Source of the DNA: Bacteroidales bacterium
GTDB lineage: Bacteria; Bacteroidota; Bacteroidia; Bacteroidales; UBA7960
DNA: 42,113 nucleotides
Assembly: GCA_019429055.1 (NCBI GenBank)
Contig: JAHYJP010000012.1
Coordinates: 1 to 42,113 of the forward strand
Direction of reading: 5' to 3'
In this document: one piece after another, positions 12,548-30,283 of the stretch
Position numbering within the stretch: the stretch's first letter is position 1
Layout of the letters: every line of letters starts with the position of its first letter
The notes under the pieces: generated by a model
The model's input: the letters and a program-made list of their open reading frames with translations, nothing else
Told to the model about the DNA's origin: nothing
Databases searched by the model: none
Position numbers and translations under genes: made by a program

Positions 12548-13390
12548 TTAATTGGAAGGGATTTTCTTTTCTTCAACCTGCAAAATTTCCATATTCGGAT
12601 TCATCAGGTAAACCACTACAGAACAATTGGAAGCAACCCAGCTATTATCCAATTCAAACGTATAGCTGTTTTCCATAATGATACCCTGAGGAAATAAATC
12701 TTCAATAATTTTATCGCCCCATATACCGGTAATACCTTTTCTAAGTACATGGTTATGCTCATAATCAAGAATCTCACCATCAGGATAATCCGGATGATTG
12801 ATTTTTTGAGGTTTAATGATCCCATCTTCCAGGATAAGAGCAACCAGGTATAACTCTCCTTCATGATCAGAAAGAGCGGTAATATCTGCATCTACCCTGT
12901 AAATGTTGCCGGAAACACTTGTGATACTCACATCAAGTTTAAAACCGGGTTCAATATCTTCCATTGCCTGCATTGCAGAACCCCAGGAGGCGGGAGTGAG
13001 CAGCAACGCCCCTTCATACTCAGTACGATTAACCATTCCAGTGGGGTTTTGCGTAATGCCGAAATGATTATTCAGTGCCGTTCCTTCGGGTGTTCGGAAA
13101 TCATAATTAAACGGAGCACTCATAGGGTTGGCAAAGAAACCTGCATGAACGGACACAATCACCAACCTGTCGCCATAAAGATTCTTCAGGATTTTGGCCA
13201 TTTCGGTTCCTGCCGGGCAATTGGGGCAGCGATGACCCGTGAATTCTTCAAGAAGAAATTTTCTTACGACTTCGTCATTTCCACCACCCTGTTGTGTATC
13301 TGTCATGTATGGCGGTTCTATTTTATCACAACCCAAAATCATTATTGTGAAAAACAGAGTTACCGGAATAATCAATTTAAAGAGTTTCAT
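12548..13390 (-). CDS. Omp28-family lipoprotein with thioredoxin-like CPNC motif
   Basis: From ATG 13390 the product has 280 residues, with a lipoprotein signal ending TIMILGC (Cys21 lipidated). An upstream in-frame ATG at 13402 (MTLS) would lengthen the signal and is less likely. The domain starts FLLEEFTGHRCPNCPAGTEM with a CxxC pair at Cys55/Cys58. VIVSVHAGFFANP and then a TQNPTGMVNR stretch follow, as in Omp28-type proteins, which share a thioredoxin-like fold. Omp28 was described as an outer-membrane protein of Porphyromonas gingivalis; its biochemical role is unsettled. The gene sits 19 bp after the DUF6029 gene and downstream of tlpA-like DNA, forming an exported thiol-protein cluster. 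Confidence 0.9.
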   Translation of the reverse strand: MKLFKLIIPVTLFFTIMILGCDKIEPPYMTDTQQGGGNDEVVRKFLLEEFTGHRCPNCPAGTEMAKILKNLYGDRLVIVSVHAGFFANPMSAPFNYDFRTPEGTALNNHFGITQNPTGMVNRTEYEGALLLTPASWGSAMQAMEDIEPGFKLDVSITSVSGNIYRVDADITALSDHEGELYLVALILEDGIIKPQKINHPDYPDGEILDYEHNHVLRKGITGIWGDKIIEDLFPQGIIMENSYTFELDNSWVASNCSVVVYLMNPNMEILQVEEKKIPSN

Positions 13391-13409
13391 ACTAAGAGTC
13401 ATTTAATCA

Positions 13410-15071
13410 TTAAAAACTGCTGGTTACGCTCAGTGTAAATCCTGATGAGGCCGGCACCACCCTGCACACCCCGCCAATGCAAATGATTCCTTCTCGCTGG
13501 CGGCCCCAGCCCAGGGCAAACCGATTGGCGTTTTTGTTGTACCCCATATTAAGGGTATAATAGTGCAACTGCTTTTCCGGGTCATCATTGCCGTAGTTAT
13601 ACTGGTCAGAAACAGCAAAAAACCAGTTGGGGGAAATATTGTACTCAACCAGCAACATGGCCCAGTTGCCATTATCCTGGGCTGTGGAAAGGTGCTGCGC
13701 TTCCCACCTTATTGAACGCCGGCGCTCGAGTCGGAGTGTCATATCGGCAACAAAAATATGGGCCTTTACATTTTCTTTATCCTGGTAACCTTCAATTACA
13801 TTCTGGTTGTAAAACAAATTCATATAGGTAAAGGTACCCCTGAGATTCCTGTTGAATCGCCGGCTGACTTCAATGTTAAGATCCTGGAAATACTTTTCAT
13901 CTCCCACAGCAAAAAAGCTCGATTTGTAACCATCGGTTCCCGTTTGCCCTATGGCTGTTGTATCATTTAAAGGCTGTTTGTCAATGGCATTGGCAATGCT
14001 GGAATTGATAGTAACGGTAGTACCAAAAGGACCTCCCAGGAAAGATTCACGGGGCAACCGGAATGTCAGCTCTGCCAGGGCGCCCATTTCGCCGGTTGGC
14101 TGGGTGGCGTAAGGGTACATACCCGTGAGGCTGTAAAGATGCTGACGTGTCATGGCCGGGAGGTAATTGATGTGCAGATCGTTTCCGGTGGCTCCCCGGT
14201 TCGACCTGAAACCCATATTGTCAATTCTTTTGGCAGAAAGCAACAGCCCGAATCCGCTGAAAGAGTAAGAACTGCTGACCATAAAAGCTTCTCCATGCCG
14301 GTATATGAAATTATTCTCAGCCGACGGATCATTGGCCTTGTAAGCATACTCGGAATTAATATTAAGTCCGCCACGTGAAAAATTTACCCGCCCTGCAAAT
14401 GCAGCAACATTTTCGGGTAAGATGTAAATGGGATCCTGATCGCGCTGAAATTTACTCACACCGCTTAGCCCCAGTATCCATTGGCTCTGCGCTTCTGAAA
14501 ATCTGCTGAAAGCCTGGTTCAGATGAATTTCCGCATCACCCCCCCTAACAATACCCGGGCCTTTATCCCAGTAAAATCTTTGCTGACCAACCAACGTCCG
14601 CAGGGTTACACCACCGGTGGGCCGGTAAAGCAATCTTATACCATCAAAAGAGTTATCAAGCCCGAGATTGGGTTCCACATAACTTCTTAAAACCATTCCG
14701 TTGCCATATTGCTCATAAAAATTACCCAGTGTAACCTCAAGATTATCCTGAGTATAACTGGCAAAGCGATAGGGAATTCCGCTGCCACGATAACGGTTAT
14801 CAAATCCCAGTAAAGGATTCTGGTAGCTTTCATACCTTAATCCAACGGTAAAACCCCTGTACTCGGCATTCAGGTTGGCAAAGGCGTTCATTAATATCTT
14901 TTCGGGTACTTCGGGTGCCCCAATGATGGTATCATTCTGGTAATACTGTGCATCCATCTGAAAATTTCCCCAAACCCTTGCTCCTGGCAGTAATTCCTGT
15001 GCTGAAACGGAAAAATGGAGCAACATGTTGACCAGTACGGTCAGTAAAACAAACTTCCCTTTTTTTATCAT
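13410..15071 (-). CDS. DUF6029-family outer-membrane protein
   Basis: The 553-residue protein has a cleavable signal (MIKKGKFVLLTVLVNMLLHF then SVSAQ). The mature part is dominated by alternating polar/aromatic strands and ends in Phe (TLSVTSSF), as outer-membrane beta-barrels do. The N-terminal region with LRYESYQNPLLGFDNRY and VTLGNFYEQYGNGMVLRSY is typical of DUF6029 proteins of Bacteroidota. Function is not established. Its start lies 4 bp after the TlpA-like gene's stop codon and its end 19 bp before the Omp28 lipoprotein start, so the three are almost certainly one transcript. A role as an outer-membrane channel or anchor for the thiol proteins is my inference. Confidence 0.85.
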   Translation of the reverse strand: MIKKGKFVLLTVLVNMLLHFSVSAQELLPGARVWGNFQMDAQYYQNDTIIGAPEVPEKILMNAFANLNAEYRGFTVGLRYESYQNPLLGFDNRYRGSGIPYRFASYTQDNLEVTLGNFYEQYGNGMVLRSYVEPNLGLDNSFDGIRLLYRPTGGVTLRTLVGQQRFYWDKGPGIVRGGDAEIHLNQAFSRFSEAQSQWILGLSGVSKFQRDQDPIYILPENVAAFAGRVNFSRGGLNINSEYAYKANDPSAENNFIYRHGEAFMVSSSYSFSGFGLLLSAKRIDNMGFRSNRGATGNDLHINYLPAMTRQHLYSLTGMYPYATQPTGEMGALAELTFRLPRESFLGGPFGTTVTINSSIANAIDKQPLNDTTAIGQTGTDGYKSSFFAVGDEKYFQDLNIEVSRRFNRNLRGTFTYMNLFYNQNVIEGYQDKENVKAHIFVADMTLRLERRRSIRWEAQHLSTAQDNGNWAMLLVEYNISPNWFFAVSDQYNYGNDDPEKQLHYYTLNMGYNKNANRFALGWGRQREGIICIGGVCRVVPASSGFTLSVTSSF

Positions 15072-15075
15072 GTTA

Positions 15076-15591
15076 TTATTCTTTTTCGAGAAGCTCCATC
15101 AGTTTGTCAAACATTTCCCATTCCATGCCATCAGCAAAGGAAGTATGCTGATAGGCAATTTCGCCCTTACCATTAATAATGAAGGTGTGAGGTACCATAT
15201 TTACACCCATGGTACGACGGAAATCGCCGTTTTCGTCATGGTAGAATTCATATTCCCATCCACGCCCGTTTACCATAGGAAGGATATTGGCACGGGTACG
15301 GGCATCATCGGTACTTACTGCAATTACTTTAAAGCCCATGTCTTCCCATTCGTCGTATATCTCGGCTATGGCATTGAGCTCTTTCAGGCACGGACGACAC
15401 CAGGTAGCCCAGAAACTCAAAACATAAGGCTTGCCGTCATTCTCAAAGCCTGCTGTCTGAAAATCACGCCCATCAAGGGTTTTAACTGTATGATCAGGTA
15501 TGGTGCGGCCACTTGTTCCCTGGGAAAAACCATTGCCGGTCATCAGCAACAGAACCATCCCGATGATGATAATTCCTAATTTTGCATTCAT
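15076..15591 (-). CDS. TlpA/ResA-like thioredoxin-fold thiol-disulfide protein
   Basis: The 171-residue protein has a hydrophobic N-terminus (IIIIGMVLLLMTGNGFSQ) serving as signal peptide or anchor, followed by an AhpC-TSA/Redoxin-type fold. The active site is SFWATWCRPCLKEL with Cys65 and Cys68. The cis-proline-side strand MVPHTFIINGKGEIAYQH near residue 136 is as in TlpA proteins. Such proteins reduce or oxidise disulfides of exported substrates in the periplasm, often taking electrons from a DsbD-like membrane protein; none is encoded in the window. It is the second gene of the 17005-12548 transcript, 40 bp after the 457-aa Omp28-like gene. Confidence 0.93.
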   Translation of the reverse strand: MNAKLGIIIIGMVLLLMTGNGFSQGTSGRTIPDHTVKTLDGRDFQTAGFENDGKPYVLSFWATWCRPCLKELNAIAEIYDEWEDMGFKVIAVSTDDARTRANILPMVNGRGWEYEFYHDENGDFRRTMGVNMVPHTFIINGKGEIAYQHTSFADGMEWEMFDKLMELLEKE

Positions 15592-15631
15592 GCTTTTTTT
15601 GAATTAAATGGATTAGTTAAGGTTTTTTGAT

Positions 15632-17005
15632 TTATCTGATAATGGAAATCTTTTCCCTGTAAACAGAGCTTCCTGATTGAATTAATAGATAATAGATCCC
15701 GGATGAAATGTCGCCAAGATCAATGTAATCTGTATTTTGCCGGGTTTTGATATGTCTTCCCTGCAAATCAAATACCATAATCTGCTCCGGCAGTATTCCG
15801 TTCATATCGCCCTTAAGCCTGATGAACTGGTTTGCGGGATTGGGGAAGATAAGAAAAGGATTACGATTTTCTGAAAATTCAGCTATATTAGTGGTATCAT
15901 CTTCATCTTCAGGCGACTGATGATCAAGTTGCACAACCTGTGAGATCTCAGTGGAACTCATTTCCTGGACAAAAGCAATCAGTTTCATATTCTCCGGTTC
16001 AAGGGTTTCGAACCACGGCATCTCAATGGTTTGGAGAAAAGTATTTTTGCTATCCCCTGCTGTTAATTTGGTTCCCTGTGCATCGGGTGCAAAAAACCGC
16101 ATTACATGATAAAAATCTTTCTCCTGATTGGAACCCGGTGGTTCATCAAAGTGCACACTCTCTTCAATCCCTGCAATTAACAGCCTGTAATCTTTGCCGT
16201 AGGTATTTACAAATATTTCACCCTCCACAACAATATATAATGAATCATTTTCTGCATGCCAGCTACCATCCAGTGAAAAACCTGACCATTTTTGCAACTC
16301 CAGTTGCATAAGCATATCTTCCACACCTTCGCTTCCGCCGGTATAAAGATTTCCTATGGCAGACCACGGAGTATAAAAGACATCATAATAATCGCGCCGG
16401 ATGTTCTGGTCTTTAGGGTTAAAGAGATACAAAGGGCTGCTTTCATAGTGCATCGGATGATAGTAGATCATGGCATAGTTGTCAGGATTCTCATCCACGA
16501 TTTTTCTGAGTGCCGGGGTTACAAGTGCACAGCTCCCGCAATTGATACTTGAGAAACTCTCCAGCAAAGCCATTTGTCTTTCAGCCAGTTGATCATATAC
16601 TTCAACGTACACACTTACGGTATCGCTCACACCCTCATCAATGTTACCACCATTGAGTTCCGAGAACCAGATTTTAATCTCATATTCTCCTTCAACTTCC
16701 GGAATCCATTTTTCACTCACCGCATACCTGAATGGGACATAAGGATAAACACCGATATTATCGAAAAACTCGGTGCCGGCTTCCTGGTCATCTATCTGGT
16801 AATGGATCCTGATGGATTCAAGCGGGCTGTTTCCAAGATAGGCTATCTCGCCACGAAGTTCATATTCGTTGTGGGTTTTGTGAACAGGCCCGCCAAAGAA
16901 ATTATCAATTCTGACTACATAGGATTTATCTGCGGCTAAAGCGTGGGTTAAAATGAAAAGCAGTGCAAGGAAAGTGATCGGAATACGTAAGAAAAGATTT
17001 TTCAT
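15632..17005 (-). CDS. Omp28-like thioredoxin-fold protein with T9SS sorting domain
   Basis: The 457-residue protein starts with a signal peptide (MKNLFLRIPITFLALLFILT then HALA). Residues about 25-140 are a beta-rich domain that resembles an Ig-like or CARDB-like unit. ALLESFSSINCGSCALVTPA follows, with CxxC at Cys156/Cys159, and the Omp28-type fold continues to about residue 360. The last 80 residues are a type A T9SS C-terminal domain: FLIFPNPANQFIRL, then VFDLQGRHIKT, then SSGIYYLLIQSG and a basic end KISIIR. It should cross the outer membrane by type IX secretion and stay on the surface or be released. It heads a four-gene transcript with the TlpA-like, DUF6029 and Omp28 lipoprotein genes. 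Confidence 0.88.
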   Translation of the reverse strand: MKNLFLRIPITFLALLFILTHALAADKSYVVRIDNFFGGPVHKTHNEYELRGEIAYLGNSPLESIRIHYQIDDQEAGTEFFDNIGVYPYVPFRYAVSEKWIPEVEGEYEIKIWFSELNGGNIDEGVSDTVSVYVEVYDQLAERQMALLESFSSINCGSCALVTPALRKIVDENPDNYAMIYYHPMHYESSPLYLFNPKDQNIRRDYYDVFYTPWSAIGNLYTGGSEGVEDMLMQLELQKWSGFSLDGSWHAENDSLYIVVEGEIFVNTYGKDYRLLIAGIEESVHFDEPPGSNQEKDFYHVMRFFAPDAQGTKLTAGDSKNTFLQTIEMPWFETLEPENMKLIAFVQEMSSTEISQVVQLDHQSPEDEDDTTNIAEFSENRNPFLIFPNPANQFIRLKGDMNGILPEQIMVFDLQGRHIKTRQNTDYIDLGDISSGIYYLLIQSGSSVYREKISIIR

Positions 17006-17086
17006 GATAAAGGTTGCATTGATAAAGATGACAGGGAATGAAAAGTCTTATTTGACCGCCACTCCTCTGTCATCCTGATTACGGGT

Positions 17087-17140
17087 ATATTTGACTTTAA
17101 TACATTAAAGTTATTAATTAATTCTCTTTTAGTCAAATAT
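17087..17140. promoter_or_regulatory. Inverted repeats upstream of the 457-aa Omp28-like gene
   Basis: ATATTTGACT (17087-17096) is perfectly inverted as AGTCAAATAT (17131-17140). Inside it, CTTTAA/TTAAAG forms a second 6-bp palindrome at 17095-17110. The pair lies 82-135 bp upstream of the start at 17005 and just after the end of the 821-aa gene. It could be an operator for a dimeric regulator, or a weak stem ending the upstream transcript. Confidence 0.35.
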
Positions 17141-17169
17141 CTGCATTATTGCATAACTGCCTGTATCTT

Positions 17170-19635
17170 CTAATGTGCAACGGTAACCTTTCTGCGTGCA
17201 ATCTTTCCATCGGCAATGATTTCAACAAAATAGATGCCTGCTGAAAACTGAGAAGAATCAATTTTCACAGTTGATCCCTGGGTGCGGGCATCGTAAACCA
17301 GCTGTCCATTGATATGGAAAAGTCTTACGTTAACATCACCGTGCACCTGGGGCAGTTCAATGAAAATATTGGCATGGGCAGGATTTGGGTAAATGTTTAT
17401 GGATGCAGGATCAAATTCATTTACAAACAACGCTTCCTGGGTTGTAAATGAAATATGAACCGGGTCACTAACTTCATTGTCGATACCCATCAAGGCACCT
17501 ACTCCCAGCACAAATAACTGATTACCTGCAAGATTTGCAAGCGGATCCACAGTAATCGCTGTTTTTTCAGTATTGATGGTGGCTGTAAAAGCAACCGCAT
17601 CGCCCTGAAGGTCATTTTCACGGAAGGTGATCAGTTGCCCGATATTCAGGAAAGTGATCTCGGATCCATCAGCATGACGCACAGGCTGGTTAAACTCAAT
17701 TGTAAAAACATGATCCACAGGCACATCAACGCCATCGTCAATTACATCAAATGTGGTTACGGGGGCACCGTAGGTTGTGCGGGTTGTAAAGACTATGCTT
17801 ACGGGCTCGGTTATAAAACCACCGGGTCCCATAACTGAAGCAATTTCAACGAAATACTGGGTATTATAATCCAGGAGTTCGTCAGGTGCAATGGTTATTG
17901 ACTTTTTGTCTTCAGAAATGCTGGCAGTAAATGGAACAGGGCTACCTTCTTTATCAAAACTGGTATAGGTGATCAGTTCGTGAACATTGGTATTGGTAAT
18001 TTCAGATCCATCAGTAAAAGTAACCGGTCCGCTGAAACTCACATTCACAACACCATCGAGTTCTATTCCTTCAGAAAGATTGTCAATATCAAAATCAATA
18101 GTGAAAACTTCATCATGCGCTGTAAATGCAGACTGGAATACCATTCTGGATGGATGATCCTGAATAAATAGTACCACCGCAAGATCATCAAATTCCTCTA
18201 TATTGGTACCGGAAAGATCCATGGAAAAGCTGTTATTGTATGCTTCGCCATCTGTAAGATTTATAGTTGTGCCTTCTGCATCGGGAATCATTTTCATCAT
18301 TACATAATGAAATTCGGTTTCACCGTTGGATGTAGCGTTATCGTAAGTAGTTTTCTCAACCACAACCACATGCAGGCGGAGATCAGAAAGGGTAAGGTAG
18401 GGAAGGATTTCCACATCAACATTTATGATTGTACCATCCATGCTGCTGGTTCCGCTTAATTCCATAAAAGCCTGCCGGCTCAGACCTGCCTGAAAGGCAT
18501 TATCTACAGCACCCTGGTTGGTTGCAACAAAGCTTCCGTCAACAACCAGAGAAGGCACAGCGTTTACGCCATAATAGACTCTTCTTATTCCACCTTCAGG
18601 AGTATAATAAGGATCACCAGGTGCTGGCCAGGACATTTGATATTTTATAATAGACATATTGCCAATATTATTAGCCACAAATGGATTCATAACACCGGTG
18701 TTGAAAGGAGCACAGGGCGGGCAGGTCGATGATGAGAAGGATTCGAACAAAGGCCTGTAGGCAACGGATCCAGATGGAACAGAGAAAGTCTTCTGGAGCA
18801 TATCATTATCAGCATTATCATCGGATTCCTGTCCATTCACATTCGAGACATAAACAGATATTGTATAGGAACCGGGAACACTTTCAATAAGACCTTCGGT
18901 TTCAAAATTGTAAGAGGATCCAAATGGGATGGAAAGTCCTGAAAAGTTCTCTGTGTATACAGTTCCGTCATTGATTTGCCAGTTTAGGTCAAAGGAGAAG
19001 ATCTCCTCCATCCCCATGTTTTCAACAACACCGGTCACAGGTACATCATCGACAAAGAAATCAGGAACAAGTAATTCGCTCATTGCAAGGTCGAGGCCCA
19101 GTGGTAATACAATTTTTACATCATCAATATACCAGTAATTGATGTTATAACTTGATCCCGAAAAGAAAAGTCCGATTTTCACATTATCAGAATTAACAGG
19201 AAAATCGTCTGCATCCAGTTGAAATGCCATAACCTGTGCAGGAATGTTAGCTGTTGGGCTTACATTCCAGATGGTTTGCCAATCCCCGCCATTATTGCTG
19301 TAGGCAAGTCCAATCTGATAGGGTCCTCCATAGTGGTCAACCATATGACGGAAACTGATGGATACAAGCCCTGATTCATTGCCTGATAAGTCCAGTGCAG
19401 GACTTTCAAGACGGCTGGTGGCATTAAACTGTGGCGCCCAGTTCAAACGCACCTCAGGCGCCTGACCGCCTGCATTGGCAGTAGCCACTGCCGACCAGTT
19501 GGCTGCATGGTCTGAGATACTCCAGCCTGATGGAGGAAATGTGCCACTGCTGAAATCTTCATCAAGCAACACTTGTGCCTGGCTTAAAAAGCCGGCAAAA
19601 ACCAGCATAATTGCTAAAAGTAAAGTTCTCTTCAT
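17170..19635 (-). CDS. Multidomain Omp28-like thioredoxin-fold protein with T9SS sorting domain
   Basis: The 821-residue protein has a signal peptide (MKRTLLLAIMLVFAGFLSQA). Residues about 22-178 are a jelly-roll of the choice-of-anchor-J/MAM type (DEDFSSGTFPPSGWSI ... NYWYIDDVKI). Residues about 182-285 look like a CARDB-type domain. The Omp28 thioredoxin-like part has SFSSSTCPPCAPFNTGVMNP with Cys305/Cys308, then continues to about 525. Two bacterial Ig-like (SbsA/Big_5) units follow at about 530-645 and 650-735, each with DGSEIT and a closing ISFTT/IVFTT strand. The C-terminus is a type A T9SS domain (INIYPNPAHANIFIELP ... SAGIYFVEI). It should be a secreted, surface-exposed adhesive or matrix protein with a redox-capable module. 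There is 164 bp to the next gene of the cluster. Confidence 0.87.
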   Translation of the reverse strand: MKRTLLLAIMLVFAGFLSQAQVLLDEDFSSGTFPPSGWSISDHAANWSAVATANAGGQAPEVRLNWAPQFNATSRLESPALDLSGNESGLVSISFRHMVDHYGGPYQIGLAYSNNGGDWQTIWNVSPTANIPAQVMAFQLDADDFPVNSDNVKIGLFFSGSSYNINYWYIDDVKIVLPLGLDLAMSELLVPDFFVDDVPVTGVVENMGMEEIFSFDLNWQINDGTVYTENFSGLSIPFGSSYNFETEGLIESVPGSYTISVYVSNVNGQESDDNADNDMLQKTFSVPSGSVAYRPLFESFSSSTCPPCAPFNTGVMNPFVANNIGNMSIIKYQMSWPAPGDPYYTPEGGIRRVYYGVNAVPSLVVDGSFVATNQGAVDNAFQAGLSRQAFMELSGTSSMDGTIINVDVEILPYLTLSDLRLHVVVVEKTTYDNATSNGETEFHYVMMKMIPDAEGTTINLTDGEAYNNSFSMDLSGTNIEEFDDLAVVLFIQDHPSRMVFQSAFTAHDEVFTIDFDIDNLSEGIELDGVVNVSFSGPVTFTDGSEITNTNVHELITYTSFDKEGSPVPFTASISEDKKSITIAPDELLDYNTQYFVEIASVMGPGGFITEPVSIVFTTRTTYGAPVTTFDVIDDGVDVPVDHVFTIEFNQPVRHADGSEITFLNIGQLITFRENDLQGDAVAFTATINTEKTAITVDPLANLAGNQLFVLGVGALMGIDNEVSDPVHISFTTQEALFVNEFDPASINIYPNPAHANIFIELPQVHGDVNVRLFHINGQLVYDARTQGSTVKIDSSQFSAGIYFVEIIADGKIARRKVTVAH

Positions 19636-19941
19636 AATAATGTAAGTTTTGATTAGGTTTGGTTAAATTTCAGACAATCGTCTGTTTAAGTCGATACAAA
19701 ATTAAGCATATTTATTTTTCGATGCCGAAAAACTTTTAATTGATTTTTTTCAAAGAAACATATGCTTTTTAAAATTATTTCATATTCAAACAGCCTGTCT
19801 CTGTCGAAAAATAGCACTAACATATGTTGATTTCTGAATTTTTGATAAAATCCTTCGCCTTTGGTTCAATTTTTGCCTAAATTTGCAATGTTAAAACATT
19901 CTTAATGCAATCTCTTAGCTCATCGCATTATTTTAATAAAC
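19636..19941. other. Divergent intergenic region, 306 bp, no gene seen
   Basis: AT-rich DNA between two divergently transcribed T9SS-cargo genes. It contains a short palindrome CAGAC-aatc-GTCTG at 19671-19684, 36 bp before the minus-strand start, a minus-strand TAATTTTG at 19704-19697, and a plus-strand TAAATTTG at 19878-19885. I find no coding frame or RNA gene. Confidence 0.6.
19878..19885 (+). promoter_or_regulatory. Candidate -7 box for the 249-aa T9SS cargo gene
   Basis: TAAATTTG followed by CA matches TAnnTTTG, 57 bp upstream of ATG 19942. The nearest upstream TTTG (19860-19863) is only 14 bases away, shorter than usual for the -33 box, so support is partial. Confidence 0.35.
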
Positions 19942-20691
19942 ATGGTTATGAAGAAACTAATACTAAGCATAGCAGTTCTGATTTCATTTTCAATGATCAC
20001 AGGCGCGCAAATTCTACTTTCCGACGATTCCGGAAATGATATTACCAATGACACGCTCGTTGTCAATGGTTTTTCTCATGAGGATTACATAAAAGTACAT
20101 GTATATTTCACCAATGATTCCGACGAAGCACAAGAAGTGCTTGTAAGAAAAATTGAGCATGACATTGTTGATGGCAGTGAGTGCGTTTTTTGCTGGTATG
20201 ATTATTGTTTTTCTCCCCAGGTGTTTGAAGTTGACAATCCTATTATTCTGGAACCTGGCGAAACATCAGCATCAACTGATTTTTATTCAGATTTTTACCC
20301 TATGGGGGTAAACGGTATTTCTTATGTTGAATTTGAGTTCTTCAATGATCGTGAATCCTTTGAACCCGTTAGTGTAGTAATAAAATTTGTTATTACGGCA
20401 GACGAAACTTCAGTATTTCATCATGAACTAGCCCGCTGGTCATTGTCCGATCCCCAGCCCAACCCTGCACGAGGCCATACCTGGATCAATTATTCATTAC
20501 CCGCCGGCAGTTCCAATGCTCAGATTGTTATCAGAAACCTTTTAGGGAAAAGTGTTCATACTGAAAATATCAGCATCGGCAGCGATCGTGTTCGCATCAA
20601 CACCCAAAGCCTGAATAACGGAATTTATATTTATTCGCTTATTATAGACAATCAAATTGTTGAAAGTAAAAGGCTGATTGTTACCAACTAA
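19942..20691 (+). CDS. Small T9SS cargo protein of unknown function with CxxC
   Basis: The 249-residue protein starts at ATG 19942, or at the ATG two codons later (MKKLILSIAV), and has a signal peptide ending about GAQ. Residues about 25-155 are a single beta-rich domain I do not recognise by name. It contains three close cysteines, ECVFCWYDYCF (Cys81, Cys84, Cys89), which could be structural disulfides or a redox pair. The last 80 residues are a type A T9SS C-terminal domain: LSDPQPNPARGHTWINYSLP, IRNLLGKSVHT, LNNGIYIYSLI and a basic tail. It is divergent from the 821-aa Omp28-like cargo gene and is followed by a strong terminator. Confidence 0.85.
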   Translation: MVMKKLILSIAVLISFSMITGAQILLSDDSGNDITNDTLVVNGFSHEDYIKVHVYFTNDSDEAQEVLVRKIEHDIVDGSECVFCWYDYCFSPQVFEVDNPIILEPGETSASTDFYSDFYPMGVNGISYVEFEFFNDRESFEPVSVVIKFVITADETSVFHHELARWSLSDPQPNPARGHTWINYSLPAGSSNAQIVIRNLLGKSVHTENISIGSDRVRINTQSLNNGIYIYSLIIDNQIVESKRLIVTN

Positions 20692-20783: not shown

Positions 20784-23700
20784 ATGAAGTCAAAGTTTAC
20801 CTATCTTTTTACATTTTTTTTACTCATTCTTACATCCATAAGTTTTGTAACTGCACAGATTTCTCAGCCCGCAACCCCGCCAAGTTTTTCAAAAACCAGT
20901 CTTACAGATCAGGTGCCGTTGATATCCATGGAAAAAGTTGATGTGGAAAGCCTGTTACAGGAGGATATGATATTCGATACCATCAAGAATATTCCCTGGC
21001 GATTCGGAGAAAATCTTTTTGTAAACATTAATCCTGAAAACTCGGGTATTTGGGATTTTCTTCCCGATGGAGATAAAATCTGGAGGGTGTCCATTGAGTC
21101 AGAGGGTGCCTATACCATCAATCTCACCTTTGATAGATACAAACTGGCCCCCGGAGCACAGCTTTTTGTTTACAATAAAGGAAAAAGCAGAATTCTGGGT
21201 GCATTTACCGACTACAATAACCAGGATGACGGCTATTTTGCGACTACTCTGGTTGAAGGCGATCATATAACCATAGAGTATTTCGAACCCCACAATGCTG
21301 CATTTGAAGGAGAATTAAACCTGGAAATGGTTACCCATGCCTACCGCGATCCTTTTGCCTTTGCCAAAGGTTTTGGAGATAGTGGTTCCTGTAACCTCAA
21401 TGTGGCCTGCCCCGAAGCCGAGGGATGGGAACAACAAATTAGATCAACCGGGATGCTGGTTACCGGTGGTAACGGGTTTTGCACAGGTGCATTGATCAAT
21501 AATACTGCAAACGATCAGCGCCCGTTTTTCCTGTCAGCAAATCATTGCTACACAAACCCCTCAACTGTTGTTTTCTGGTTTAACTGGCAAAGTGAAACGT
21601 GCAGTAATCCGCCTTCATTCCCCCCTTATAATTCCATGTCGGGTGCAACACAAATTGCCCGGCATTCAACATCCGATTTCTGGCTGATGGAACTTAACCA
21701 GCCCATCCCCGACGAATACAACCCTTACTATGCAGGCTGGAACCGAAGCCTCGAAAGTGTTTTGAATGAAACCATCATAGGGGTGCACCACCCCAGGGGT
21801 GATATTAAAAAATTCAGCTATGCAACCGGTGGGGTGCAGGCAGCCAGTTATCTTCAGGGGCCCGGATCGGGAACCTCTCACTGGCGGATCGTTTGGAGCG
21901 GGGGAACTACAACCGAACCCGGCTCAAGCGGATCTCCCATTTTTGATTCCCAGGGCCGCATCCTTGGTCAGTTGCATGGTGGTTATGCCGCATGCGGCAA
22001 TACCCAACCCGACTGGTACGGACGATTGGGAATTTCATGGAACGGAGGGGGCAGCCCGGCTACCCGACTCAGCGATTGGCTGGATCCCCTGGGAACAGGT
22101 GTAGCTGCTCTCAATGGGTTTGATCCATTTGGCACAGCAGTAAATAATCCCATAAGTTTTGATGCACAAACCCTTTCAGAAAATGAAATCTTACTGCAAT
22201 GGGAGCTCAATGAAGATGAAAATTTTGTAATGATAGCTGTAGATGACTCTGAAACTTTTGGTGAGCCTGCAGGCCCTTACACTCTCGGAGATGAAATAGA
22301 AGACGGTGGAACCATTATTTATATGGGCAATGATGAAGAATATCTTTACTCCGGACTTGAACCCTCTGCTGAATATCATTTCAAAATATGGTCATTTGCA
22401 GCTCCGGGACCGGAATATTCAGCAGGTCTTACTGCATCAGCCCAGACTCTATGCAATAATGTAACTGATTTTCCATTTTTCGAAGGGTTCAACGACGAAG
22501 AAATATCATTATGCTGGCAGCAGGAATACATTGTAAATGAAGTTGACTGGCTGGCAGGTGTTGGCAATAATGATGGCTATCCCTTTTCGGCTTATGAAGG
22601 AAGCAGTAATGTGTTTTTCAGGGTAGAAACATTACCGCTGAATGGAAGCACCACACGACTTATCAGCCCGGTTATGGATCTTCAGAACTATGGCAGCGCA
22701 CAACTTTCATTTTTCTACGCTAATCCGGCCCAGTCGGGCAACCAGGATATACTCAGGGTGAAATATCGCACCCAGCCCACCGGGGAATGGATTTTGCTGG
22801 AAACATTTGATTTTAACCAGTTCTCCTGGACCAATGTTACTCTCGATATTCCTGAGTTAAGCAACCAGATACAGATAGCATTTGAAGGTGAAGCACGCCG
22901 CGGCCGCGGAATTTCAATTGACCAGGTGGAAATATTTGCACAGTTCGGGCAGGAAATGCCCAACCCGGTGAATCTTTCCTATACTATTATCGATGACAAT
23001 TTTGTAAGTCTTAGCTGGGAAAATGTTTTTGAAGATGATGGTGTAGATTTAAAGGAACTTGCTTCGGCAGGCATTGATGTATACCGAAATGATCAAATGA
23101 TCTTTTCGGGCAATGATCCCGACCAGGTAAATCATATTGACGGCCCACTGCCCGTTGGAAGTTTTACATATTATGTGCAGGGCAGACAGGCCGATGGCAC
23201 ACTATCAGAACCATCCAATGAGGTAACAGCAACCATTAATGCCACAGGCAATGAATATACACTATCGCTTGGTAAAACCGGACAGGGTTCGCTGAATTTT
23301 GCAGAAGGCGAATACCTTTACAAGCCCGAAAGTCAGGTAAGCATTCAAGCGTATCCTGAAGAAAACTGGTCATTGGATCACTGGCTTGTAAATGGCATCG
23401 AATCCGGAAATCAGGTTGATATCGAAGTAACCATGCAGGAGGATAAGGTTGTTGAAGCTGTGTTTACCGTTGATACATGGGAGGTTCTTCTTTCTGTTGA
23501 ACCGTCTGATGCCTATGAAAACCTGGAAGGTGCAGGAGTTTATGAACATGGCGATACCATTACCATTTCCGTTTTGCCTCAAGTGGGATATCTGTTCATG
23601 CACTGGCTTGAAAACGGCAGTATATACTCCACGATCTCAGAAGCGCAGGTAGTTGTCAAATCTGATAAGAACTTCATTGCAATTCTTGAACCCTTTGAGT

Positions 23701-24413
23701 TTACAGTTGAAGTTGATATAACACCCGAAGGTGCAGGGTCCGTAACAGGTGCCGGTACATTTGGTGCAGGATCGCAAATTACGCTGACGGCTATTCCCGA
23801 ACCGGGCTGGATTTTTGAACACTGGTCAACAGGAGAAGGAAATGATGAAACCATTATTTCGCAAGACCCTGTTTATGAGTTTGTTTTGAATAATAATTTT
23901 CATTTCAATGCCAGCTTTGAAGCGTTTTTCCCATCATTGCTAATAGAAGTTGAAGGACAGGGAACAACCAACCCGCAACCGGGTGAATACAGTTTTGAAT
24001 ATGGTGAAGAGGTTACACTTAATGCCACTCCAACCGAACCCTGGGAATTTGAAAAATGGGTTGTTAACGGAATTGACATTGATCAGCAGCAGGTTATTAT
24101 TACAATGGAAGAAAATACCCAGGCCAAGGCTGTATTTATGGAACCTACCACTGTTAGCGAACTTTCTGATCAGGATGGATTCTCAGTGTATCCTGTCCCG
24201 GCAAATCAGGAGTTATTTGTGCTGTTACCCGAAGCCGGCGGCTGGCAGATCCAGATCATAGCTGTTACCGGCCAGATCATAGAAAGCCGATCCTTTGAGT
24301 CAATGGCAGGAACACCTGTTTCGTTGAATTTATCAAACTTTAAGAGTGGTATTTATTTTGTGAAAGCTCAAAATAATGATCAGGTATTTTTTGCCAGAAT
24401 TATAGTTGAATAA
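20784..24413 (+). CDS. T9SS-secreted lysyl-endopeptidase-like serine protease with InlB-B-like repeats
   Basis: The 1209-residue protein has a signal peptide (MKSKFTYLFTFFLLILTSIS then FVTAQ). Residues about 60-185 form a beta-rich N-terminal domain. The S1 (chymotrypsin-fold) protease spans about 200-447 with the triad His254 (SANHCY), Asp298 (STSDFWLMEL) and Ser382 (EPGSSGSP); its layout and cysteines resemble lysyl endopeptidase. Then come a fibronectin III unit (about 453-555), a choice-of-anchor/MAM-like jelly roll (556-722), a second fibronectin III unit (727-818), four InlB-B-like repeats (about 824-895, 898-970, 973-1047, 1051-1118) and a T9SS type A domain (about 1130-1209, VYPVPANQELFVLLP). 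It should be exported to the surface or medium. Lys specificity is inferred from family likeness only. Confidence 0.93.
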   Translation: MKSKFTYLFTFFLLILTSISFVTAQISQPATPPSFSKTSLTDQVPLISMEKVDVESLLQEDMIFDTIKNIPWRFGENLFVNINPENSGIWDFLPDGDKIWRVSIESEGAYTINLTFDRYKLAPGAQLFVYNKGKSRILGAFTDYNNQDDGYFATTLVEGDHITIEYFEPHNAAFEGELNLEMVTHAYRDPFAFAKGFGDSGSCNLNVACPEAEGWEQQIRSTGMLVTGGNGFCTGALINNTANDQRPFFLSANHCYTNPSTVVFWFNWQSETCSNPPSFPPYNSMSGATQIARHSTSDFWLMELNQPIPDEYNPYYAGWNRSLESVLNETIIGVHHPRGDIKKFSYATGGVQAASYLQGPGSGTSHWRIVWSGGTTTEPGSSGSPIFDSQGRILGQLHGGYAACGNTQPDWYGRLGISWNGGGSPATRLSDWLDPLGTGVAALNGFDPFGTAVNNPISFDAQTLSENEILLQWELNEDENFVMIAVDDSETFGEPAGPYTLGDEIEDGGTIIYMGNDEEYLYSGLEPSAEYHFKIWSFAAPGPEYSAGLTASAQTLCNNVTDFPFFEGFNDEEISLCWQQEYIVNEVDWLAGVGNNDGYPFSAYEGSSNVFFRVETLPLNGSTTRLISPVMDLQNYGSAQLSFFYANPAQSGNQDILRVKYRTQPTGEWILLETFDFNQFSWTNVTLDIPELSNQIQIAFEGEARRGRGISIDQVEIFAQFGQEMPNPVNLSYTIIDDNFVSLSWENVFEDDGVDLKELASAGIDVYRNDQMIFSGNDPDQVNHIDGPLPVGSFTYYVQGRQADGTLSEPSNEVTATINATGNEYTLSLGKTGQGSLNFAEGEYLYKPESQVSIQAYPEENWSLDHWLVNGIESGNQVDIEVTMQEDKVVEAVFTVDTWEVLLSVEPSDAYENLEGAGVYEHGDTITISVLPQVGYLFMHWLENGSIYSTISEAQVVVKSDKNFIAILEPFEFTVEVDITPEGAGSVTGAGTFGAGSQITLTAIPEPGWIFEHWSTGEGNDETIISQDPVYEFVLNNNFHFNASFEAFFPSLLIEVEGQGTTNPQPGEYSFEYGEEVTLNATPTEPWEFEKWVVNGIDIDQQQVIITMEENTQAKAVFMEPTTVSELSDQDGFSVYPVPANQELFVLLPEAGGWQIQIIAVTGQIIESRSFESMAGTPVSLNLSNFKSGIYFVKAQNNDQVFFARIIVE

Positions 24414-24583: not shown

Positions 24584-26983
24584 TTATTCGCTTTTCAGGG
24601 TATCTACAGGATTACTTCGGGCTGCCTGTAAGGTTTGGCCAGAAATGGTTATTACAGCAATCAGGAGCGAAATAAATCCTGCAATCAAAAGATAAAAAAA
24701 CGACATATTGATGCGATAGGGAAACTCTTGCAGCCATATCTGCATTAAATACCATGCAACAGGCCATGCTATTAAGTTTGCCAGAATTACCCATCGAATG
24801 ATATCGCGAAGCAACACCCATGAAACCTGCAGGCCCGATGCACCCATGATCTTCCTGATACTAATTTCCCTTTTCCGGGCCATTACCATGTAGGATGATA
24901 ACCCAAGAACTCCAAGCATGGCAATAATTATAGCAAGAATGGATGCATAATTCAGAATTTTATTATTGCTTTCTTCCTGCCGGTAAAGGCTATGGAAATA
25001 AGTTTCAAGGTAAAAATCTTCGGGATTATAATTGGGGTCAAATCCCCTGAAAACTTCATGAATATGCGAAAATACATCCTGCTGATAATCATCGCTCAGT
25101 TTTACGGATATATAATAAAACTGGGTTGCATAAGCTGTAAGAACCAGGGGGGTTATCTTGTTGACCAGCGAACTGATGTGAAAATCTTCAACTACTCCGA
25201 TAATTTTTCCACTCCTTTGCCACATTACCGCATCCTGCCCGATAGGATCATCCAGGCCCAGCGCTGCGGCAGCAGTTTCATTGATTACAAAATTCTGCCG
25301 GTCTGTCTGACTTTCAAAATCAAACCATCGGCCTTGTTTGATATTCAACCCGAAGGTTTTATGGAAATCTTCATATACTCTGTATTCAGCAACAGAAATA
25401 TCAACTCCTAAATCATCATCAGCTTTTCTGAGCGACATACCGCTGCCCGATGCACCGGGGTATGCCTGAGATGCTGTAACACTCCCGACCGACGGGTGCT
25501 GAAGCAGTTCTGCTTTGACTGCATCAAATGAGCTGATCAGGCGATTGCTTAAACCGGAGTAGACCAAAACGTTGCTGGGAGAAAACCCCAGGTCAGATGC
25601 TTTCATATATTGGATCTGCCTGTTAAAGACCATAATCGACACAATCAGAATGACAGAAATAGAAAATTGAACAACCACAAGAATTATCCTCAACAAAGGA
25701 TTTCTGCGCCCGCCACGACCTTTACCTCTGAGAATTTCAGCCGGGCGATAACCGGAAAACATAAAGGATGGATAAGCTCCGGCCAGCAAACCTACCAATG
25801 GAGCAAGCAGTATCAGTACAATGAGATTCATTAGGTCAAGCTGATTCAAAAGGCTGAGTTCCCGATTCAACAGGCTTGAAAAAGGCCCCAATAACAATTC
25901 TGCCAAAACCAGAGAAATCATAAGAGCCAGTCCACTTACAAGAATTGCCTCTCCCATAAACTGAAAAATGATATCGGACCGGCGTGCACCGGCAACTTTT
26001 CTGATTGCTGCTTCTACAGCTCTTCTCTCGGAGCGGGCCGTTACAAGGTTAATGAAATTGATGATAGCAATAAATAAAATGAAAAAAGCTACAGCCGAAA
26101 ATACATAAATGATTTCAAGATTTCCCCTGGTGCCTGTATCATACCCATAGCGCTGCCCAAAATGAATATCATGCAAGGGTTGTAGTGAGTAACTCATAAT
26201 ATCTCTGAATTCCTCACCATATAAACCCAAAGCGTATTCTTTGATCAATTCTGACAGGTTTTCCATTTCAGATGCAGAAAGCACATTATGTGTTTTAAAA
26301 TACACAAAAACATCATTGGCAAAACCACTGGCAAGTAATGGGTCATAGGATTCATAGGAGTGTAATACTGAAAATTGCAAATGGGTATTCAGGGGTATAG
26401 GATCAAACACTGCTCCTACCCTTACAGGGATGTACCTGGATGTTAATCTTCCCGATTCATGTTCAATATAAAATTGTTCTGCCTCAATAATTTCATTGAT
26501 GGCATTCTGATCCCCGAATAGCTTTTTGGCTAGTTCATAAGATAAGGCTACTGCTGAAGGATCGGATAACGTTTGTTCCAGGTCTCCGGCATATAAGGGA
26601 AAATCAAATAGATCTTTAAAGGAAGGATCTGTCATTAAAAACCTTTCACTCTCAAATATCTGATCCCCGCTTTTAACGCTATACCTTTCGGGCTTAATTC
26701 TTACAGCATTCGCTACCAGGGGCGATTGTTCCGGCAAAAGTTCTGCAACACCCGGCAGGGTTCGGGGTAAAACGTCGGCCACATCGCCACCGAAACTGGA
26801 AATAACTCTGTATATTCTTTCACCATTACTATGAAACCGGTCGTAACTCTTTTCATGTTTAATAAAAAGAAACAGCATAATAGATGCTGCCATAGCTACT
26901 GCCAGACCAAAAATATTGATGAAACTGAATCCTTTTTGCCTAATTATATTTCTCCAGGCTATTTTGAGGTAGTTAAACAGCAT
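24584..26983 (-). CDS. FtsX/MacB-type ABC transporter permease
   Basis: The 799-residue protein has the two-module layout common in Bacteroidota. TM1 (about residues 20-42) is followed by a large periplasmic MacB core. An FtsX block of about three TM segments starts near residue 280 (FSAVAFFILFIAIINFINLV) and contains the EAAIRKVAGA coupling helix. TM5 (LLRIILVVVQFSISVILIV) leads a second periplasmic part, and the final FtsX block has ISIRKIMGAS and ends NPVDTLKSE. MacB-like systems do not pump through the membrane themselves but use ATP in the cytoplasm to drive periplasmic movement, for export or envelope tasks. It is the last gene of the minus-strand operon, 118 bp after its paralogue. Confidence 0.93.
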   Translation of the reverse strand: MLFNYLKIAWRNIIRQKGFSFINIFGLAVAMAASIMLFLFIKHEKSYDRFHSNGERIYRVISSFGGDVADVLPRTLPGVAELLPEQSPLVANAVRIKPERYSVKSGDQIFESERFLMTDPSFKDLFDFPLYAGDLEQTLSDPSAVALSYELAKKLFGDQNAINEIIEAEQFYIEHESGRLTSRYIPVRVGAVFDPIPLNTHLQFSVLHSYESYDPLLASGFANDVFVYFKTHNVLSASEMENLSELIKEYALGLYGEEFRDIMSYSLQPLHDIHFGQRYGYDTGTRGNLEIIYVFSAVAFFILFIAIINFINLVTARSERRAVEAAIRKVAGARRSDIIFQFMGEAILVSGLALMISLVLAELLLGPFSSLLNRELSLLNQLDLMNLIVLILLAPLVGLLAGAYPSFMFSGYRPAEILRGKGRGGRRNPLLRIILVVVQFSISVILIVSIMVFNRQIQYMKASDLGFSPSNVLVYSGLSNRLISSFDAVKAELLQHPSVGSVTASQAYPGASGSGMSLRKADDDLGVDISVAEYRVYEDFHKTFGLNIKQGRWFDFESQTDRQNFVINETAAAALGLDDPIGQDAVMWQRSGKIIGVVEDFHISSLVNKITPLVLTAYATQFYYISVKLSDDYQQDVFSHIHEVFRGFDPNYNPEDFYLETYFHSLYRQEESNNKILNYASILAIIIAMLGVLGLSSYMVMARKREISIRKIMGASGLQVSWVLLRDIIRWVILANLIAWPVAWYLMQIWLQEFPYRINMSFFYLLIAGFISLLIAVITISGQTLQAARSNPVDTLKSE

Positions 26984-27101
26984 AAAAATGTTTCAAGATA
27001 GTTAGTTAAAACGAAAGATAAGGTTAATCAAATATGATTATTATATTGTGATTGAAACATTCCCGATAGTGAATGGATAAGGGATTTCTGAAAAGAAGTA
27101 T

Positions 27102-29516: not shown

Positions 29517-29578
29517 GGTTAACAAATGATTGTTAAGCCTAATCAGCTTTTCTACAGCCTAAAAAAAAGATTGGAAAA

Positions 29579-30283
29579 TTACTTTGCTACGGAAGTAAGC
29601 ACAAATTCTGTGGTTTTATCTTCAGTAACGATCTGCCCGTCAAACAGGCGAACAATTCGCTGTGCATAAGATGCATCGCGCTGTGAGTGGGTTACCATAA
29701 TGATGGTTGTGCCATTCTTATTAAGTTCTTCCAGCAGGTTCATTACTTCATCACCGTGAGTTGAATCAAGGTTTCCGGTGGGCTCATCGGCAAGTATAAT
29801 ATGCGGACGGGCAACCACTGCACGACAAACAGCAACCCTTTGTTGCTGACCCCCTGACAATTGAAGCGGGAAGTGATTCTTACGATGCATGATCTGCATC
29901 TGGCTGAGTACTTCCTCTACTCTCTTTTTACGTTCAGAAGCACTGTATCCAAGATATATAAGTGGCAATTCAATGTTTTCATAAACACTCAGTTCATCAA
30001 TCAGGTTAAAATTCTGGAATACAAACCCGATATTTTTCTTTCTGAGATTGGCTCTTTGTTTCTCGGAAAACCCTGAAACCTCATTGTTTAAAAAATGATA
30101 CTCCCCACCGGAGGGGTTGTCAAGTAACCCGAGTATATTAAGCAAGGTTGATTTACCACAGCCCGAAGGACCCATAATGGCAACAAATTCGCCTTCATTG
30201 ATTTCGAAAGATACTTTGTTAAGGGCAGTGGTTTCAACCTCTTCGGTACGGAAAACCTTGGTTAAATTCGATGTTCTGATCAT
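29579..30283 (-). CDS. ABC transporter ATP-binding protein, MacB/LolD type
   Basis: The 234-residue ATPase has Walker A GPSGCGKST, the Q-loop FVFQNFNLIDELSVYENIELP, the signature LSGGQQQRVA, Walker B IILADEPTGNLDS and the switch TIIMVTHSQRDA. The DSTHGDEVMNLLEELN stretch after Walker B is typical of the LolD/MacB (type VII) class. It powers the FtsX-type permeases encoded immediately downstream. The start at ATG 30283 yields the usual MIRTSNLTKVF N-terminus. It follows the adaptor gene by 55 bp on the same strand. Confidence 0.96.
   Translation of the reverse strand: MIRTSNLTKVFRTEEVETTALNKVSFEINEGEFVAIMGPSGCGKSTLLNILGLLDNPSGGEYHFLNNEVSGFSEKQRANLRKKNIGFVFQNFNLIDELSVYENIELPLIYLGYSASERKKRVEEVLSQMQIMHRKNHFPLQLSGGQQQRVAVCRAVVARPHIILADEPTGNLDSTHGDEVMNLLEELNKNGTTIIMVTHSQRDASYAQRIVRLFDGQIVTEDKTTEFVLTSVAK

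Follow-up and report, generated by a model that had tools for sequence, protein, structure and literature searches.

Genes and cysteine pairs at the locus

The window analysed here (the whole 42,113-nucleotide stretch of contig JAHYJP010000012.1, assembly GCA_019429055.1, of a Bacteroidales bacterium) carries a cluster of genes for exported thiol proteins and a DUF6029 β-barrel. An initial annotation, made from the DNA letters alone, had noted this thiol-protein cluster; it was confirmed and is larger than first noted. All five minus-strand genes listed there were found as open reading frames (ORFs), but a sixth member on the plus strand, a homologue of PorA of Porphyromonas gingivalis, had been omitted. 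In the direction of transcription, the minus-strand genes encode an Omp28/HBP35-type protein secreted by the type IX system (821 amino acids (aa); 17170-19635), a second Omp28-like type IX-secreted protein (457 aa; 15632-17005), a TlpA/ResA-like thiol-disulfide oxidoreductase (171 aa; 15076-15591), an outer-membrane β-barrel of the DUF6029 family (PF19494; 553 aa; 13410-15071; identified by profile match and predicted structure) and an Omp28 outer-membrane lipoprotein (284 aa; 12548-13402). The gaps between them are 164, 40, 4 and 7 base pairs (bp), and because of the short intergenic distances at least tlpA, DUF6029 and omp28 look co-transcribed. The PorA-like gene (249 aa; 19942-20691) is divergent from the five, and the 306 bp in between (19636-19941) are presumed to hold the promoters for both; a Bacteroidota-type promoter pattern (TTTG/TAnnTTTG) matched three times in the window against 2.7 matches expected, with none in 19636-19941.

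The four CxxC pairs of the annotation were present as written: CPPC at aa 305-308 of the 821-aa protein, CGSC at 156-159 of the 457-aa protein, CRPC at 65-68 of the 171-aa protein and CPNC at 59-62 of the 284-aa lipoprotein. In the first three proteins these are the sole cysteines, and the lipoprotein has in addition its lipid cysteine and one further. The pairs exceed chance, because shuffling of the four sequences (5000 trials each) gave a CxxC in only 0.2%, 0.6%, 1.1% and 4.2% of the trials, respectively, and because the sole further CxxC among 23 other ORFs of the window that were tested is in the PorA-like neighbour. None of the pairs, which read CPPCA, CGSCA, CRPCL and CPNCP, forms the c-heme motif CxxCH of Mtr-type porin-cytochrome conduits. 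The fifth gene had been annotated as a probable barrel, and a barrel is indeed predicted, but its own conserved cysteine pair (C531 and C536, CxxxxC, the sole cysteines of the protein) had been overlooked. Among homologues at linked loci, CxxC is kept in 110/110 Omp28 proteins without and 45/46 with a sorting domain, and WCxxC in 101/102 TlpA proteins (conservation in orthologues being a check that the annotation had proposed). The exception, at locus L103, has CCKPC for WCxPC, and in L101 and L103 the cysteines of the PorA-like proteins are wider apart (a variant or early decay).

The 171-aa protein matches PF00578 with 76.1 bits (cut-off 26), and W64, C65, P67, C68 and P134 are invariant in 55 aligned sequences; they include the active-site motif WCRPC and, with Pro134, the cis-proline position. 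It is presumed to be periplasmic, with what appears by eye to be a signal peptide. We call it “TlpA-like” and assign it to no named subfamily because it did not reach the NCBIfam cut-offs for ResA (75.6 vs 170), DsbE (61.2 vs 123) or rhizobial TlpA (49.5 vs 230).

Three Omp28-like proteins had been proposed, of which two exceed the Pfam cut-off of 34.9 bits (the 284-aa lipoprotein with 96.9 and the 821-aa protein with 37.8) whereas the 457-aa protein, with 23.8, stays below it; a Pfam Omp28 scan of the window's own genome listed two of the three copies. Two window proteins match the NCBIfam family of Omp28-related selenoproteins below its cut-off (the 284-aa lipoprotein reached 140.5 vs 150 with NF033782, just under, and the 457-aa protein gave E 3e-9 with Omp28_seleno), and selenoprotein relatives fit a catalytic cysteine pair. 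The annotation's two type IX cargo proteins were borne out: the sorting domain is over the cut-off in the 821-aa protein (type A, aa 748-819, 48.9 vs 27 bits) and in the 457-aa protein (aa 386-455). The 821-aa protein has its CPPC just ahead of the Pfam Omp28 match, two stretches of Big_5 immunoglobulin-like domains and, below threshold, an N-terminal choice-of-anchor-J-like domain.

The lipoprotein has a lipobox with Cys25, a cysteine kept in 60/63 aligned sequences, and a thioredoxin-like domain with CPNC and an invariant Pro120. Its profile matched the solved structures of HBP35 (5y1a, E 7.9e-11) and Omp28 (2r2c, E 1.6e-34), and thioredoxins too. After the lipid cysteine, Omp28 lipoproteins have D or E at +2 in 57/60 and at +5 in 43/60, which differs from the published surface-export motif; the tail reads C-[DE]-x-[IV]-[DE]-x-P-[YF] in many members, is unusual for a linker and may bind a partner. 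Elsewhere, a 689-aa Omp28 protein encoded after the DUF6029 gene of L129 has two CxxC pairs (CINC and CGYC), and L025 has two Omp28 stretches.

Linkage of the genes and their distribution in Bacteroidota

Linkage was counted in two sets of loci. Set A was drawn from genomes taken one per species and comprised the 79 loci with the closest relatives of the window barrel (of 140 relatives found, the best 80 were kept, minus L110 with a partial barrel); among them, the barrels of L072, L073 and L074 are near-identical. For set B, 39 of the 80 genomes with DUF6029, spread across the phylum, gave 40 stretches (20 strong and 20 weaker matches); the set omits 41 genomes, many of them from one family with split weak matches (f24, represented by L152), none of its barrels closely resembles one of set A, and 20 of its genomes also gave short-flank loci (among L004-L032) to the alignments. 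A count of neighbour families covered 107 loci, leaving out L001-L003, L029 and L110.

A TlpA gene lies within 1 kb of DUF6029 in 68/79 loci of set A and 32/40 of set B (100/119), and an Omp28 gene without sorting domain within 1.5 kb in 73/79 and 25/40. Omp28 genes with sorting domain were found within 6 kb in 25/79 and 10/40, PorA-like genes within 7 kb in 30/79 and 19/40. The order tlpA-DUF6029-omp28 recurs across loci; the neighbourhood, the conservation of which the initial annotation had suggested as a check, is thus kept in other genomes, and a chance neighbourhood was rejected because the linkage recurs in the 107-locus count as well as in sets A and B. In L152, the most divergent locus examined (DUF6029 E 2.8e-10), TlpA still adjoins DUF6029, and no Omp28 was recognised. 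TlpA was not counted in 11 loci of set A; in six of these (L043, L045, L057, L087, L088 and L095) the contig begins no more than 440 bp from the barrel gene. Set B has eight such loci: in L136 and L140, TlpA is displaced by one gene, and the genomes of L116, L119, L122, L124 and L128, with no TlpA by the barrel, carry a divergent TlpA-PorA pair elsewhere (L162, L160, L161, L163 and L168, respectively).

Gene arrangements vary around this core, and the full set is present in, for example, Adhaeribacter (L051/L053). In metagenome-assembled genomes (MAGs) labelled Bacteroidaceae or Barnesiella (e.g., L100, L105 and L106), omp28 is followed by PorA-like, Omp28 and DsbD genes on the same strand; that the gene complement is kept in a new order points to function rather than inertia. 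DsbD genes occur within 7 kb in 11/79 loci of set A and 1/40 of set B, always downstream on the strand of the barrel (L108 has DsbD_N, DsbD_TM and thioredoxin domains by Pfam, and the other DsbD neighbours were matched by a profile of that cluster). In one of the 40 set B loci, L120, TlpA and nearly the whole DUF6029 profile lie in a single 667-aa frame with one signal peptide, so that the thioredoxin precedes the barrel at its N-terminus, a position that is presumably periplasmic. Of six regions around PorA-like matches, L178 (in the order TlpA, DUF6029, Omp28 lipoprotein, PorA) and L181 have the TlpA-DUF6029-Omp28 trio by PorA, and L182 has the same trio with PorA not recognised; in L179, which has no DUF6029, two Omp28-sorting-domain genes adjoin PorA, in L177 PorA stands alone, and L180 gave no match.

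Of 296 sampled genomes, 80 have DUF6029, whereas the 14 control genomes gave no match. SprA, a gene of the type IX translocon, is present in 78/80 genomes with DUF6029 vs 148/216 without; the exceptions are the window's own MAG, in which a 203-aa C-terminal piece of SprA by a contig end stays below the cut-off, and one genome (G230) with none. PorA-like N-domains were detected in 46/296 genomes, and DUF6029 in 40/46 PorA-positive vs 40/250 PorA-negative genomes (Fisher 7e-21) or, counted by family, in 16/17 vs 9/34 (Fisher 3.9e-6), phylogeny being ignored in both tests. Three PorA-like loci in genomes without DUF6029 (L154, L155 and L156) have the pair as CPDGNC, CPGGNC or CLGATC and no TlpA or Omp28 match within five genes.

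The predicted DUF6029 barrel and the PorA-like protein

The 553-aa protein matches PF19494 with 608.3 bits (cut-off 27, E 1.6e-182). C531 is kept in 80/80 and C536 in 79/80 aligned homologues, and a motif C-x2-[GS]-x-C near the C-terminus was found in 78/79 barrels of set A (in the one without, L099, the C-terminus is broken by an ambiguous base) and in 40/40 of set B, the most divergent locus included. The predicted model (mean predicted local distance difference test score (pLDDT) 94.1, predicted template modelling score (pTM) 0.87) has 24 strands, counted from the DSSP string and spanning residues 32-552, which are connected by short turns at one end of the barrel and, for the most part, by longer loops at the opposite end. 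The hairpin with C531 and C536, in the loop between strands 23 and 24, would face the outside, judging from the periplasmic position of both barrel ends, the strand count and the loop lengths. On the long-loop side, conservation exceeds that of the turns (2.43 vs 1.88 bits) and is highest in the cysteine loop (3.42 bits; the next 3.34). It is also higher in residues that face the lumen than in those that face the lipid (2.55 vs 2.15 bits, p 5e-4, facing assigned by hydrophobicity).

This conservation of the lumen and of the long-loop side would suit an uptake system, with DUF6029 as a channel for heme, a metal or a small thiol compound that the thiol proteins capture or reduce at the surface, as would the binding of hemin by HBP35 (PMC2907840). 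However, hemin binding is independent of the CxxC of HBP35 according to the available text of that paper, and the five named clusters of recurring neighbours (DsbD, MatE, RNase HII, DHDPS and serine dehydratase) hold no metal or heme gene, most clusters being unnamed; we regard uptake as quite improbable.

Among structural matches of the model, the usher FimD came first (Z 18.5, 372 residues, root-mean-square deviation (rmsd) 4.3), followed by the OprD-family porin OccK3 (Z 17.7, 312 residues, rmsd 6.3) and the usher PapC (Z 17.5, 373 residues, rmsd 4.8). FimD and OccK3 are tied by Z (within 1), the ushers leading in length and rmsd only, and the likeness would be one of size and not of family membership. 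The single DUF6029 sequence matched no solved structure, and the DUF6029 profile matched only a short stretch of RecA fusion constructs, which was taken as meaningless. Strands 6 and 7 of the model, between which ushers have their plug, are joined by five residues; the 553-aa model has no room for the plug and periplasmic domains of ushers. AlgE and OprD-type barrels also appeared among the matches, in line with a published proposal, from the profile similarity of Wzi-like barrels, that DUF6029 is a polysaccharide export barrel (PMC9603273). That role seems very improbable to us, given that the constant neighbours are thiol proteins (no search was made for polysaccharide genes).

The product of the plus-strand gene is a PorA homologue and the sixth member of the gene set. 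A profile of its N-domain found 6kjk, the N-domain of P. gingivalis PorA, with E 1.7e-5 as the sole match among solved structures up to E 0.1, and its predicted model (pLDDT 91) has the same best match (Z 14.2, 125 of 134 residues, rmsd 2.6, 16% identity). It ends in a type IX sorting domain (PF18962, 40.9 vs 27 bits; TIGR04183, 36 vs 23) and has a conserved pair, C84/C89, in an FCW-x2/3-CY-like motif. The two cysteine columns are invariant in 37 aligned members, a C-x3/4-C pair occurs in 28/31 and 19/20 PorA-like members, and P. gingivalis PorA (sequence of the solved protein) has two cysteines at the aligned place. The family has 44 members at 43 of the 107 DUF6029 loci; in the 16 members scanned, no Pfam or NCBIfam family covered the N-domain and there were three weak single-member matches. 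The window's own genome also encodes a PorX-like REC+PglZ protein. Two short PorA-like proteins (L157 and L159; 178 and 142 aa) have no recognised sorting domain and three close cysteines, CSMCQHGAC, and in L136 (G066:C105) one ORF of about 500 aa has two PorA-like N-domain matches, a possible tandem PorA.

As a further alternative, DUF6029 could be the pore by which PorA is exported to the surface; such a 24-strand barrel, of the size of an usher, would bypass the type IX translocon, and TlpA and Omp28 would act on the cysteines of PorA. The usher matches would agree with this, and the PorA N-domain is FimH-like (Dali Z 8.4 as published, PMC7712824; Z 9.9 in our model). But the tie with OprD-family porins may reflect barrel size, neither plug nor extra usher domains fit into 553 aa, PorA has a type IX sorting domain and was found with Sov-PorV (PMC8754138), and half of the DUF6029 genomes have no detectable PorA, so that such a pore appears improbable.

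Next to the PorA-like gene lies a gene for a 1209-aa type IX-sorted trypsin-like protease (20784-24413, plus strand) with four divergent InlB-type repeats and a MAM/choice-of-anchor-J domain. It is followed by two tandem ADOP/MacB-like permease genes, under the NCBIfam cut-off (24584-29525, minus strand), and an adjoining 234-aa ORF (29579-30283), the start of which resembles an ABC ATPase by eye.

A proposed envelope thiol-redox system and its relation to known systems

We consider it very likely that these genes form one system. A single conserved envelope thiol-redox system of Bacteroidota is, on balance, our preferred explanation, a degree of preference that reflects the claim that TlpA acts directly on the barrel complex, which we hold to be somewhat more probable than its opposite. 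Inner-membrane DsbD/CcdA-type proteins would reduce periplasmic TlpA (the window's own genome encodes a 694-aa DsbD-like and a 238-aa, CcdA-size, DsbD_TM protein, which makes a supply of reducing power by DsbD plausible). At the outer membrane, TlpA would then work on or through DUF6029 and the Omp28 lipoprotein to set or reset cysteine pairs at the surface, namely those of the type IX cargo of Omp28/HBP35 type, of the PorA-like protein and of the outer hairpin of the barrel. By homology to PorA, the output would probably be that type IX secretion is controlled or maintained from the surface. We thus infer a reductive direction, contact of TlpA with the unfused barrel, passage of electrons over the outer membrane and a signalling output. 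The relay to the surface suggested by the initial annotation is strengthened by the TlpA-DUF6029 fusion and by DsbD genes downstream; that thiol exchange itself crosses the outer membrane via the barrel is, in our view, doubtful. A stricter form, in which DUF6029 is a trans-outer-membrane thiol conduit that links periplasmic TlpA to outside cysteines, with the redox state of surface PorA reporting to the type IX regulators, is rather unlikely; it would represent a thiol counterpart of porin-cytochrome conduits and supply the factors that the PorA papers call missing.

Several observations weigh against the thiol-redox system or its extension to the surface. DsbD lies near the operon in just 12/119 loci, and 49/79 set A loci have no PorA within 7 kb (some at contig ends), the set being modular; L147 has no TlpA beside DUF6029 and none beside its PorA-like gene (L166). 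PorA is undetectable in 40/80 DUF6029 genomes, so it would not be obligatory, six genomes with PorA-like proteins lack DUF6029, and the co-occurrence tests ignore phylogeny. The outer face of the barrel was assigned from strand count and loop lengths, and its cysteine pair could be a purely structural disulfide. P. gingivalis was not found in the genomes searched with a fragment of its PorA (346, 374, 6 and 190 genomes, overlapping), in which the matches had 26-40% identity and none was near-identical; its locus is known here through the published neighbours PG2172/PG2173, and the published list of P. gingivalis thioredoxin proteins, in its available text, names none near PG2172/porA (PMC2907840), which speaks against a TlpA at that spot.

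A structural role of the barrel pair would agree with a more modest function, in which TlpA and Omp28 only fold or repair proteins: either in the periplasm or at the surface, they would mature the structural disulfides that the barrel, PorA and the cargo have, and nothing would cross via DUF6029. The pairs of the barrel and PorA are close, strongly conserved and in or beside loops like structural disulfides, TlpA and Omp28 have the thioredoxin-type CxxC and the conserved proline, and HBP35 is cited as complementing an Escherichia coli dsbA mutant (PMC2907840). Still, a helper of one two-cysteine protein needs neither a fusion nor adjacency throughout the phylum, and several thioredoxin-like proteins carry sorting domains that would take them to the far side of the outer membrane, at which point folding in the periplasm has ended. 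We rate such a folding function as unlikely.

In the thiol-redox reading, the uncharacterised, phylum-wide DUF6029 family, named in one paper of the open-licence literature searched, gains a cysteine motif that is fixed, a partner that stays constant and a role that can be tested. This reading also joins in one gene system three kinds of P. gingivalis protein studied apart, PorA, HBP35 and Omp28. The initial annotation had spoken of an undescribed system. This holds for the six-gene set, no description of which was found in the open-licence literature (where most subscription papers are absent), but PorA and HBP35 have been studied singly in P. gingivalis (PMC7712824, PMC2907840).

PorA of P. 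gingivalis (PGN_0123/PG2172) shares with the PorA-like protein the N-domain fold, the sorting domain and the two cysteines at the aligned place, and PorA and the Omp28 lipoprotein of P. gingivalis bear consecutive numbers, PG2172 and PG2173 (PMC9722745; PG_2174 is listed as an uncharacterised vesicle protein, PMC4335976). The differences are the identity of 16% in the structural alignment and PorXY-SigP signalling, which is reported in P. gingivalis only. PorA is on the cell surface and PorY is an inner-membrane kinase, so that other factors should mediate between them, and PorA reaches the surface even in type IX mutants (PMC7712824); a possible alternative route was raised again in the Sov interactome paper (PMC8754138). 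The available text of the two papers mentions neither TlpA, DUF6029 and PG2173 nor a disulfide. PorA-like genes travel with genes for a thiol enzyme, for a thiol lipoprotein of the outer membrane and for a barrel predicted to lie there, and these are candidates both for the PorA-to-PorY mediator and for a route of PorA to the surface that does not need the type IX machinery. They are joined in none of the papers found.

HBP35 and Omp28 of P. gingivalis resemble the window proteins in the Omp28 profile match, the thioredoxin-type CxxC and the sorting domain on secreted forms; the thioredoxin activity reported for HBP35 requires its CxxC, and its physiological role is given as not known (PMC2907840). 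However, the secreted proteins encoded in the window are larger, and single-sequence searches gave no match between them and HBP35. The ushers FimD and PapC resemble DUF6029 in the 24-strand barrel, which is predicted for DUF6029, and in the top structural match by Z, tied with OprD-family porins, whereas DUF6029 has no plug or extra domains, has the conserved cysteine hairpin on its predicted outer side and shows 10-12% identity. Disulfides of outer-membrane proteins are tied to type IX secretion in Bacteroidota also in SprF/PorG-GldK (PMC12635249), but these are other proteins, joined to a moving internal track, and the text of that paper has no TlpA, thioredoxin, reductase, Omp28 or DUF term. 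In the DsbD-TlpA-MsrAB pathway of Neisseria no dedicated barrel or type IX cargo is described in the available text (PMC3526765), and no methionine sulfoxide reductase is among the present genes. In both, a DsbD-fed thioredoxin-like protein is proposed to serve an outer-membrane redox protein, and the neisserial route, itself partly proposed, would be the nearest precedent found for reducing power at the outer membrane.

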